Origin: an uncultured Rhodospirillales bacterium
Lineage (GTDB): Bacteria > Pseudomonadota > Alphaproteobacteria > Reyranellales > Reyranellaceae
Direction of reading: 5' to 3'
Assembly (NCBI GenBank): GCA_902825855.1
Contig: CADECW010000004.1
Coordinates: 1-64,000, forward strand
Length of the DNA stretch: 64,000 nucleotides
Made by a program: the position numbers and the translations under genes. Below the pieces are notes generated by a model that was not told where the DNA came from, did not search any database, and was given only the letters and a program-made list of their open reading frames with translations. Positions 27,553 through 47,491 of this stretch are shown here, piece after piece. Each line of letters begins with the position of its first letter. Position 1 is the first letter of the stretch.

Positions 27553-28569
27553 CTACAGCGTCTTTCGCGCCAGTGCCGCACCCTCGGCGAGCGCGCGCAG
27601 CTTCGCGTACGCCGTCGCCAGCGTCATCGGCGCCATGCCGCAGTTGGTGCAGGCCTGGATGCGCTCGGGATCGACATACTTCGTCGCGAGCTTCAGGGTC
27701 GCCGCCACTTCCTCCGGCGTCTCGACCTTGTCGGATGCGACGTCGATCGCGCCGACCAGCACGGTCTTGCTGGGCAGCAGCTTCATCAGCTCGGGCGGCA
27801 CGTGGCTCTCGCGGCATTCCAGCGAGACCTGCTGGATCCTGCTGCGGTCGAGCGCCGGGAAGGTCTTCTCATATTGCCGCCAGCTCTCGCCGAGCGTCTC
27901 CTTCCACTTGATGTTGGCCTCGATGCCGTAGCCGTAGCAGATGTGGACCGCTGTCGTGCACTTCAGCCCCTCGGCCGCCTTCTCCAGCGCCGGCACGCCC
28001 CATTCCACGGTCTCGTCGAGATAGACATTGAAGGCGGGCTCGTCGAACTGCACGACGTCGACGCCGAGCTTCTCGAGGTCCTTCGCCTCCTGGTTCAAGA
28101 GCTCGGCGAAGGCGAATGCCATCTTCACCCGGTCGCCATAGAAGCCGTCGGCCAGCGTGTCGATCAATGTCATTGGTCCCGGCAGGGTGAACTTGAGCCT
28201 GCGGCTGGTCGCGGCGCGGGCGATGCGCGCCTCGCGCTCGTGCACGAATTTGCGCCGCTTCAGCGCCGACGTGACGGTCGGACAATCTGCATCGTATCGA
28301 TTGTTGCGGATGCCCATGCGCACTTTCTTGTCGAAGTCGACTCCGTCGACCTCGGCCAGGAAGCCGTGCACGAAGTGCTGCCGCGCCTGCTCGCCGTCGC
28401 TCACGATGTCCAACCCGGCTTCTTCCTGGCGGCGGATGGCGAGCGCCGTCGCGTCGTCCTTGGCTTCGAGCAGCGGCGCGCCGGTGAGCGTCCACGGCGC
28501 CCACAAGACGTTGGGCGTGGCGAGCCACGAGGGTTTCGGCAGGCTGCCTGCCAGCGTCGTCTCGAACAT
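27553..28569 (-). CDS. MetE C-terminal-like, cobalamin-independent methionine synthase-family protein
   Basis: 338 residues, corresponding to the catalytic barrel of MetE without its N-terminal half. Zinc-ligand motifs are in place: HICYGYG, SLECRES and ACTNCGMAPM. TLAGSLPKPSWL and FDEPAFNVYL are typical of the stand-alone MetE-like group. Such proteins transfer a methyl group to homocysteine or a related thiol; the donor used by short forms is often not methyltetrahydrofolate. GGGAGG lies ahead of ATG 28569, next to the end of a dispersed repeat. Confidence 0.88.
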   Translation of the reverse strand: MFETTLAGSLPKPSWLATPNVLWAPWTLTGAPLLEAKDDATALAIRRQEEAGLDIVSDGEQARQHFVHGFLAEVDGVDFDKKVRMGIRNNRYDADCPTVTSALKRRKFVHEREARIARAATSRRLKFTLPGPMTLIDTLADGFYGDRVKMAFAFAELLNQEAKDLEKLGVDVVQFDEPAFNVYLDETVEWGVPALEKAAEGLKCTTAVHICYGYGIEANIKWKETLGESWRQYEKTFPALDRSRIQQVSLECRESHVPPELMKLLPSKTVLVGAIDVASDKVETPEEVAATLKLATKYVDPERIQACTNCGMAPMTLATAYAKLRALAEGAALARKTL

Positions 28570-28586: not shown

Positions 28587-28706
28587 CCGTCATCCCGACC
28601 GGAGCCGAGCGCAGCGAGGCGGAGTGGGACCTATTCTGTTGCTCCGTCGACAAGAAGAGGTCCCTCGACTGCGCCGCCCTTCGGGCGGCTTCGCTCGGGA
28701 TGACGG
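28587..28706. repeat. 120-bp MITE-like element with perfect 12-bp terminal inverted repeats
   Basis: CCGTCATCCCGA (28587-28598) is exactly inverted at the other end, TCGGGATGACGG (28695-28706). The interior is GC-rich and contains smaller hairpins such as CCGCCCTTCGGGCGG. It fills nearly all of the gap between hemY and the MetE-like gene and codes for nothing. A diverged copy lies at 35831-35925 and a fragment near 47444. No flanking target duplication is obvious. Confidence 0.75.
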
Positions 28707-28714
28707 GAAATTGG

Positions 28715-30064
28715 TCATTTGTCGCTGAATTCGAGTTCTGCCCGCGTCTCGGGCGGCAAGACATGGCCGAACGTCCCGGGTGCGCGCCATTGCAGGGTGC
28801 CGAAGGCACCGCAGCTCTCGCACACCGAGCGCCAGGTCTCGTGCTGGGCGGCGCAGGCGGTGCAGCGCCAGGCACGATCGGCCGGCGCGTCGGCGGCGCG
28901 GGCCAGCCAGTCGTGCACCTTGGCCTGAGCGGCGCCCGATCGCTCCTCGACCTCGGCCATCAGGCGGCAGACGCGTACCGGCGGGCTGGTGCCGCCGGCG
29001 ATCTCGAGATGCCGCCGCGCCTCGCCCCACAGGCTTGCCTCGAGCGAGGCCTGGGCCAGCGCCAACTGGCTTTCGATGTCGTTCTCGTTGTGCGTCACCA
29101 GCCGACGGATGACGCCGATGCGCTTCAGCGGATCGTTCTCGCCCGACGCTTCGAGGTAGAGCAGGGCGAGATCGGGGTGCGGCGCCAGCGCCCATCCGCG
29201 TTCCAGGGTCTTCTGCGCGCGCCTGCCATCGCCGGCCTTGATCTGCAGTCCGGCGAGGCGCTGGGTGACGGCGATGCGCTCGGGCGCCAAAGTAAAGGCT
29301 TCGCGCGCCAGCGTGAGCGCCTCGGCGGCATTGCCGTCGCGCTCGGCGGCGCGGCTGCGCTCGACCAGCAGCAAGGCCTTCAACGTGCGGCCCCTGTCGT
29401 TGGTGACGACCTTGCGGCGCTCGCCGGTCTCCAGCGTCTCCTGTGCCGCCTTCCACTGGCCGGTCTGCGCCTGCATGTCGAACAGCGAATGCACCACCCA
29501 GGGCGTCTGCGGCTTCAATTGGAAAGCGCGCTGGGCATAGGCCAGCGCCTTGGCCTGGTCGCCCTCGCGCAAGGCCTGGCCGATCAGGCCGCGCAAGCCG
29601 AGGAAAGCGGTGTGCTCGTCCTCCAGCATAGCGGTGAAGGCGCGGTTGGCGCCGTCGCGGTCGCCGGCAAGCTGGGCGGCCTGCGCCGACAGCAGGAGCG
29701 TGACCGGCGGCTCGGCCAGAAGCTGCTCGGCCTTCCTGGCGTATCTCTGCGCCTCGGCGCCGTCGCCGGCGGCGACGGCGGCTAGTCCCTGCGTCAGCGC
29801 GCGATAGCCGCGCTGCTTGCGGCTCTCGCCCCAACCTTCAAGCAGGGCGAACGGCGCGCCGACGATCCAGCGATAGAGCAGCCAGCCGCCGATGCAAAGC
29901 CCGACCAGGACGATCAGCGCAACCAGCAGCACGCCGACGCTGCTGTCGAGCCGCCAGCCCTGCCATTCAGCAGTGACCGTGCCCGGCCGCTCGGCGAGCC
30001 ACACGGCGCCAAGCATCGCCACGGCGGCGACGGCGAACCAGACCAGGACGCGTAGCGTGGTCAT
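28715..30064 (-). CDS. hemY: HemY-type TPR membrane protein of the heme gene cluster
   Basis: 449 residues. Two N-terminal membrane helices (about 5-25 and 43-67) precede a cytosolic TPR-like helical domain with the HemY signature FALLEGWGESRKQRGYRALTQGLAAVAAGD. The C-terminus holds two CxxC pairs (CTAC and CESC), a likely zinc ribbon seen in alphaproteobacterial members. HemY is linked to heme biosynthesis by operon context; it is not the HemY protoporphyrinogen oxidase of Bacillus. It follows the hemD-COG4223 gene by 42 nt. Confidence 0.9.
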   Translation of the reverse strand: MTTLRVLVWFAVAAVAMLGAVWLAERPGTVTAEWQGWRLDSSVGVLLVALIVLVGLCIGGWLLYRWIVGAPFALLEGWGESRKQRGYRALTQGLAAVAAGDGAEAQRYARKAEQLLAEPPVTLLLSAQAAQLAGDRDGANRAFTAMLEDEHTAFLGLRGLIGQALREGDQAKALAYAQRAFQLKPQTPWVVHSLFDMQAQTGQWKAAQETLETGERRKVVTNDRGRTLKALLLVERSRAAERDGNAAEALTLAREAFTLAPERIAVTQRLAGLQIKAGDGRRAQKTLERGWALAPHPDLALLYLEASGENDPLKRIGVIRRLVTHNENDIESQLALAQASLEASLWGEARRHLEIAGGTSPPVRVCRLMAEVEERSGAAQAKVHDWLARAADAPADRAWRCTACAAQHETWRSVCESCGAFGTLQWRAPGTFGHVLPPETRAELEFSDK

Positions 30065-35829: not shown

Positions 35830-36188
35830 TTCCCGTTTTCCCGACCGGAGCCGAACGCAGCGAGGCGAAGCGGAAGGATCTGTTCTGTTGCCGCACCGCC
35901 CTTGGGCGGCCTTGCTCGGATGACGCTCTCACAGCGGCTTTTTCAGCTGCGCTGCCATCTGCAAAATCAGGCCCGTGAGATTGCTCACGTGCAATGCGTG
36001 CAATCGCCTTGCGGCTGTGATTGGTGCGTGACGTCGCGCTGAGCCGTGTCACCGTCTGCCTGACCCGGCGTTTATACTCCGACATGGTGTGGTGTTCCGC
36101 AGCGCCGCGCCGCGAGGCTGCCGGTGCGATGCCGGCTGCCGGCACAGGGGTGTGTCGCCGGGCTGCGGCGCGAGAAGAGACGTAACGC
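35830..36188. other. 359-nt intergenic region after argC
   Basis: The first about 95 nt are a diverged copy of the dispersed repeat. The remainder has no convincing gene on either strand. It contains TATACT near 36071, a possible -10 without a good -35, and ATGCCGGCTGCCGGCA (36129-36144), which recurs upstream of the oxidase at 39821-39836. Confidence 0.5.
35831..35925. repeat. Diverged copy of the 120-bp dispersed repeat
   Basis: Shares CCCGACCGGAGCCGA, CGCAGCGAGGCG and TGTTCTGTTGC-type segments in the same order and orientation as 28587-28706, and ends in GCTCGGATGACG. The left terminal repeat is degraded (CCGTTTTCCCGA instead of CCGTCATCCCGA) and the interior is about 25 nt shorter. Confidence 0.65.
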
Positions 36189-47443: not shown

Positions 47444-47491
47444 CCTCCGAGTCGCAGTGCTTCGCACTGCTGCGGTCGGAATGACGGTGTA
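47444..47491. repeat. Fragment of the dispersed repeat
   Basis: A hairpin GCAGTGC-TTC-GCACTGC is flanked by TCCGAGTC on one side and CGGTCGGAATGACGG on the other, the latter resembling the right end TCGGGATGACGG of the 28587-28706 element. It sits between substrate-binding protein and permease genes and could act as a transcript-stability or attenuation hairpin. Confidence 0.4.

Follow-up and report, generated by a model that had tools for sequence, protein, structure and literature searches.

A probable ISAs1-mobilised MITE family with REP-like cargo in Reyranella, and its shell-less derivative beside a HemY-like gene

A 120-bp palindrome lies between two minus-strand genes in the 64,000-nucleotide stretch of Reyranellaceae DNA that was analysed here (the window), and it raises the question of whether such a sequence is a transposon derivative bounded by its own inverted repeats, or a repeat of another kind. 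A preliminary description took its 12-bp inverted ends for element termini, suggested a MITE or REP-like family spread across the genome and perhaps mobilised by a transposase that is absent, and named as checks a genome-wide search for copies, an alignment of insertion sites with relatives and a search for a transposase with matching ends. The inverted ends proved exact, with CCGTCATCCCGA found at 28587-28598 on the plus strand and at 28695-28706 on the minus strand and at no third exact site in the window, while 28 window sites matched with up to two mismatches against 11.6 expected. The features of the locus and of two further copies in the window were as follows.

27553..28569, minus strand: downstream gene with a cobalamin-independent methionine synthase domain (PF01717)
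28587..28706, plus strand: core, a head-to-head pair of CGTC-tagged REP-like hairpins (inverted arms, folding and 180 genome-wide left ends)
28587..28632, plus strand: left arm, CGTC...CCGGAGCC type, with GGGACCT at its end (sequence; arm types and folds)
28658..28706, minus strand: right arm, CGTC...GCGAAGCCGCCC type, whose plus strand starts AGGTCCC (sequence; pattern match at 28661-28705, minus strand)
28707..28717, plus strand: right linker GAAATTGGTCA, overlapping the HemY stop codon (flank comparison with shell-bearing copies)
28715..30064, minus strand: upstream gene, HemY-like (PF07219)
35833..35925, plus strand: decayed copy after an argC-like gene, in the same orientation, with the middle deleted (letter comparison)
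47444..47487, minus strand: single arm (monomer) with a perfect GCAGTGC-GAA-GCACTGC tip (sequence)

The core is a head-to-head heterodimer, its two halves being of different arm type. The inverted arms exceed the 12 bp first described, being 39 nt long with 79% complementarity; an inner stem of 12 nt has 92% complementarity, and the core strand folds as a single long hairpin with z scores of -5.89 (RNA) and -6.14 (DNA), each equalled by 0 of 200 shuffles. The folds also make each half a hairpin of its own, with the CGTC tag unpaired, a TCCC/GGGA stem and a nested tip. The tips vary among arms yet remain complementary (GCCGCCC-GAA-GGGCGGC, GCGC-GAA-GCGC, GGCCC-GAA-GGGCC and others). Among 126 distinct arms no longer than 50 nt, 60 have a perfect tip stem of at least 4 bp, where shuffling gave 13.8 on average and 24 at most; the arms are mutually related, so that the events are not independent. 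A perfect tip stem of just 2 bp was found in 49 of the 126. It is these REP-like arms that end in the 12-bp inverted repeats, which are not transposon termini. In some arms, seen among those of 65 nt and at locus L299, a further palindrome occupies the tip (e.g., around CCCTCGACTTCGCTCGGGG), so that nesting continues within arms.

Both additional window copies of the preliminary description are real. The diverged copy which it gave as 35831-35925 does follow an argC-like gene in the same orientation and is better bounded at 35833-35925, the gene upstream of it matching semialdehyde dehydrogenase families, and the fragment near 47444 is a single minus-strand arm between a solute-binding-protein gene (SBP_bac_5) and an ABC permease gene (BPD_transp_1_N). 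In the source genome, a 7.79-Mb draft of 396 contigs, the 24-bp left end was matched 93+87 times when 3 mismatches were allowed and the reversed control 0 times, which gives at least 180 left ends and bears out the expectation of many copies. Many contigs of this genome stop no more than roughly 100 bp from a copy (e.g., C32, C33, C57, C72, C89, C119, and C270); the repeat thus probably breaks the assembly, and the copy numbers are lower bounds. The core was matched in 35 of 37 genomes of the same genus that were searched and in 0 of 24 of other genera. In named genomes the core pattern was found in 56 stretches, 49 of them titled Reyranella and seven otherwise (four 'Rhodospirillales bacterium', one 'Proteobacteria bacterium', one Enhydrobacter and one Asaia MAG), which points to the soil bacterium Reyranella as the genus of the window.

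The true outer boundary was indicated by those copies that sit in a larger palindrome, with 17-bp termini YAGGGCTATCGCATATG and with flanks outside the core reading GGGCTATCGCATATG...CATATGCGATAGCCC. These outer termini lie about 25 bp beyond the core ends on each side, so that the mobile unit of the relatives ends that much further out than the 12-bp repeats which had been taken for its ends. The full-length elements are mostly 160-200 bp in all, and one from a relative folds with a z score of -14.2 (DNA). An exact 15-mer of the terminus was present in 19 of 61 genus genomes, with 0 matches to the reversed control in each. One terminus type encloses different palindromes in different Reyranella species, and four cargo classes were distinguished inside the shell, namely two CGTC types, an inverted TGTCAT type and a C-rich type.

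To describe the flanks, we used full-length loci that chanced to be retrieved, many of them via the exact terminus; 47 raw elements were reduced to 43 by requiring distinct flanks of 20 nt and a minimum length of 120 bp, and to 41 by dropping a longer overlapping call at L233 and a composite at L234. The two bases next to the 15-mer were mostly CA or TA (left, CA 25/43 and TA 12/43; right, CA 29/43 and TA 10/43), and when they are counted as part of the terminus the flanks form direct repeats of exactly 10 bp. The flank identity for the 43 elements peaked at length 10, with a mean of 0.71 in comparison to 0.30 to 0.45 at lengths 7 to 9, 11 and 12. The duplication was perfect in 13 of the 41 elements and had 9 to 10 matches in 20 of the 41, while pairing the flanks of different elements gave a mean of 0.36 and a maximum of 3.2 for perfect duplications, and a mean of 0.64 and a maximum of 5.1 for those with at least 9 of 10 matches. 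The duplicated sites prefer CCC-N4-GGG, and duplications occurred in all four cargo classes (13/23, 3/7, 3/8 and 1/3). The complementary stems outside the outer terminus were at first read as a palindrome split by the insertion, a reading that was rejected because direct repeats fit better: at length 10 the direct flank similarity had a mean of 7.88 against a null of 5.36, and the inverted similarity was 6.44 against 5.60 (reached in 0 of 2000 shuffles). The inverted similarity is taken to reflect a palindromic target preference.

These termini and duplications lead to the ISAs1 family, for which the accessible part of a published account gives an inverted repeat of 14-22 bp starting CAGGG and a 10-bp direct repeat (PMC11946415). 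R. soli NBRC 108950 (G011) carries an intact ISAs1-family IS of 1193 bp (L248:1396-2588) with the ends CAGGGGAATCGCATGTGGCT and CAGGGCTATCGCATGTGTCC and with CCCGTATAAC on both sides, a perfect 10-bp duplication. Its right end CAGGGCTATCGCATGTG equals 16 of the 17 bases of the shell terminus, and its protein scored 320.6 bits against the ISAs1 transposase model, for which the cut-off is 70. The full-length copies in the genus thus have a CAGGG-type terminal inverted repeat, a 10-bp duplication and an autonomous relative with the same ends. As far as the partial family account allows, it is the terminus, the CAGGG start and the 10-bp repeat which the Reyranella element shares with an ISAs1 IS, from which it differs in having no transposase gene.

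We consider it probable that the repeats constitute a MITE family which is mobilised by ISAs1, carries REP-like cargo and includes many derivatives without a shell; the 120-bp sequence is its core. In its complete form the core is enclosed by the YAGGGCTATCGCATATG terminal inverted repeats, and an ISAs1-family transposase may recognise these termini in trans, as the observed termini, the duplications and the matching R. soli IS suggest; insertion would then generate the 10-bp target duplication, with a preference for CCC-N4-GGG-like sites. Such a family is a variation on a known type of mobile element. The proposal of a genome-wide MITE or REP-like family holds as to its spread through the genome and the genus and as to a MITE form within the genus, but not for the window copy as a MITE.

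Several results count against the ISAs1-type MITE reading. PF13808 was matched in just 8 of 61 genus genomes, with no match in the source genome, and the R. soli transposase protein as a query matched in 9 of 65 genomes, again with none in the source genome. Genome G071 has a contig-truncated relative of this transposase (56% identical over 210 residues) with one end CAGGGGAATCGCATATG, and two of its contig ends carry single, CAGGG-AATCGGGTGAG-like ends; the ISAs1 locus of G087 has a different perfect end pair without a duplication, and the remaining ISAs1 loci examined gave no convincing end pair. Among the loci examined, an end pair matching the shell was found only in R. soli (one case), and the suspected absence of a transposase agrees with the lack of PF13808 matches in the source genome, while the likely family persists intact in R. 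soli. In addition, a duplication with at least 9 of 10 matches at the exact offset was found in 0 of 5 full-length elements of the source genome (2, 3, 5, 5 and 6 of 10 matches), L148 having CCATAAGGGG on either side but shifted by one base.

As for the window copy, no outer terminus was found on either side (class 'linker') and no target duplication is visible in its flanks, and its right linker GAAATTGGTCA resembles that of shell-bearing copies (right score 11 to position 16). Under the MITE reading, this copy between the HemY-like and the methionine-synthase-like genes would be one of the derivatives that have no shell; with neither outer termini nor a target duplication, it is a shell-less derivative which is not an ISAs1-type MITE by itself. 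Among 52 classified copies of the source genome, drawn from 61 rows of low-divergence matches with flanks of 150 bp or more, so that the fractions are not valid for old copies, the outer terminus was found on both sides in 5 and on one side in 9, linker traces only in 17 and neither in 21. The shell is absent in 38 of these 52 copies, the window copy included, which also counts against the ISAs1-type MITE reading. In this genome the shell is largely gone, and most copies in the sample are palindromes without it, usually a short distance 3' of a gene. Ageing alone does not account for this, since shell-less cores are as near to the consensus as shell-bearing ones (medians of 0.943 for inner-only and 0.943 for shell-bearing copies, p=0.32; the inner-only rows L032 and L113 were read in the opposite orientation and hence score low, at 0.764).

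The alignment of the window site with relatives pointed in the direction expected of an insertion. Of 30 loci, 13 were usable (12 relatives and the source genome) and 17 were without a usable alignment, some of them being stored in reverse orientation, and the core was absent in all 12 comparable relatives. The gap measured 24 bp in G011, 27 bp in G032 and 40 bp in G071 in comparison to 145 bp here; it was 18-65 bp in G012, G083, G034, G082, and G027, and G081, G076, G019, and G024 held other palindromes. The window copy thus most likely arrived in its own lineage. When 30 copies were queried for orthologous sites, a gap was readable for part of them. L103 measures 32-33 bp in three relatives and 183 bp in the source genome, while at L129 G078 is empty, the source genome has a shell-less core and G011 and G032 have other palindromes; the inserts at both sites have neither shell nor duplication, a further point against the ISAs1-type MITE reading. 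A shell-less copy at L109 is common to the source genome and R. soli, and at L035 G032 has a shell-less core where the copy of the source genome has one terminus. Since inserts without a shell occur at orthologous sites, the core seems to arrive shell-free in some cases, either truncated while it moved or brought in along another route.

A second route would exist if the core moved or was copied alone through an activity on its hairpins, with the ISAs1 shell as a secondary home in which cores insert or replace one another, an explanation which is compatible with the ISAs1-type MITE reading. It draws on the 38 copies with linker traces only or with neither shell nor linker, on the consensus comparison, on L129 and L035, and on the unrelated cores held by the same termini in different species. 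We nevertheless find it rather doubtful, as a transposase for the core was not found, inserts without a shell showed no clear duplication, some half of the 21 'inner' copies adjoin other copies so that their flanks are hard to read, and no core-free shell was recognised among the loci retrieved for the terminus. An independent outer palindrome may have served as a target for core insertion. Within the ISAs1-type MITE reading, it is conceivable, though we advance it tentatively, that REP-like palindromes are interchangeable passengers of one ISAs1 shell, and that the cores then persist and multiply shell-free; if this is true, the missing mobiliser of CGTC-tagged repeats would be supplied.

At the window site and at L021, L105, and L129, the same gaps hold different palindrome families across Reyranella species (the CGTC type, the GTCATCCTGAGCGC type, and the C-rich CCTCCCC and CTCTCCCCCGCTAG types). 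It looks as though a small number of permissive gaps were filled repeatedly.

The paired inverted REPs, extragenic location and many copies also recall REPINs, from which the Reyranella core differs in its tag. Mobilisation of a REP/REPIN family by a RAYT (Y1 tyrosine transposase) would account for extragenic REP-like hairpins in head-to-head pairs; Y1_Tnp was matched in 31 of 61 genus genomes. We regard this as highly improbable, because the source genome had 0 Y1_Tnp matches and 10 Y1 loci of relatives showed the shell terminus in none and a CGTCATCCCGA-like motif only in L348 and L351, one each, while the four Y1 loci checked for inverted repeats were flanked by other repeats. The Y1-type genes at L343, L344, L346, and L350 lie between different inverted repeats (e.g., GGAGCGCGCAACTCCAGTTGCGCTC) and form a separate family bearing terminal inverted repeats.

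The gene context was examined with gene calls from a simple codon-score script. Of the 52 copies, 11 were dropped (7 called 'inside' a gene and 4 without a gene on one side), and the gaps holding the 41 classifiable copies were tandem in 28, convergent in 11 and divergent in 2, in comparison to 16, 4 and 10, respectively, for 30 window gaps. Divergent gaps are thus avoided (2/41 against 10/30, Fisher p=0.0027), and the median distance of a copy was 25 bp to the stop side and 53 bp to the start side. Both results, together with tips that vary yet stay complementary, would suit a mainly selected regulatory element, such as a transcript-end or mRNA-stability hairpin whose spread is incidental. 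We think this unlikely: gaps that lack the core in relatives and the duplications demonstrate movement, avoidance of promoters is likewise expected of tolerated insertions, and no terminator-like site was found at the window copy, where a promoter scan was likewise empty. Rfam gave 0 matches in the window at the gathering score, the window copy included, and two weak miRNA-family matches far under their cut-offs. Under the ISAs1-type MITE reading, the shell-less palindromes 3' of genes would be either tolerated or acting on transcript ends.

Among known systems, the nearest precedent in the accessible text of PMC5896051 is QMITE2 of Coxiella burnetii. This MITE measures 150-190 bp, has direct repeats that vary in sequence and encloses a REP; its shorter copies without terminal inverted repeats or direct repeats resemble plain REPs, and it lies mainly 3' of genes. 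There the REP is of GTAG type and is used as a target by IS1111, with repeats of 7-11 nt (PMC5896051). So far as that text goes, the Reyranella family resembles QMITE2 in a MITE that encloses a REP or REP-like unit, in direct repeats, in shorter copies without terminal repeats and in location 3' of genes, and differs in its CGTC-tagged cargo, the 10-bp duplication, the matching ISAs1 element and the several cargoes per terminus. To that extent it supports the idea, put forward for QMITE2, that transposons reduced to a remnant account for some of the plain REPs (PMC5896051).

CGTC-tagged REPs, in the available portion of Di Nocera 2013 (PMC3733652), have an unpaired outer CGTC tag and form head-to-head dimers, heterodimers being common; they are extragenic and mostly alphaproteobacterial, and that portion reports that an association with a transposase was not found. 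All H. neapolitanus CGTC-1 dimers are there said to lie inside a 41-bp palindrome and never alone, and the definition requires a stem of 8-9 bp starting with a paired AT, a loop of 4-5 nt and a CCA-like tail (PMC3733652). Judged by this partial account, the Reyranella core shares the unpaired CGTC tag and the head-to-head dimers but has common arms of 37-47 nt, a nested tip, an unpaired A and a TCCC/GGGA stem; as its stem, loop and tail fall outside the definition, we call it REP-like. The occurrence of CGTC-tagged REP-like dimers inside an ISAs1-type transposon with target duplications, together with the intact R. soli IS, makes their mobilisation testable. The dRS3/NIME repeats of Neisseria presumably resemble the Reyranella repeat in sequence. 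The same available portion equates dRS3 with CGTC-1 REPs, found in clusters (Di Nocera 2013, PMC3733652). No prior Reyranella repeat family and no REP-enclosing ISAs1 MITE was found in the literature searched, which was largely that outside subscription.

One further observation concerns transporter genes. At L105, whose genes were read from the sequence only, as at 47444-47487 in the window, a palindrome stands between a transporter gene and the next permease gene. The REPs between the E. coli transporter genes malE and malF are placed comparably to the 47444-47487 arm, and by this analogy copies of the family may have an effect on transcripts.
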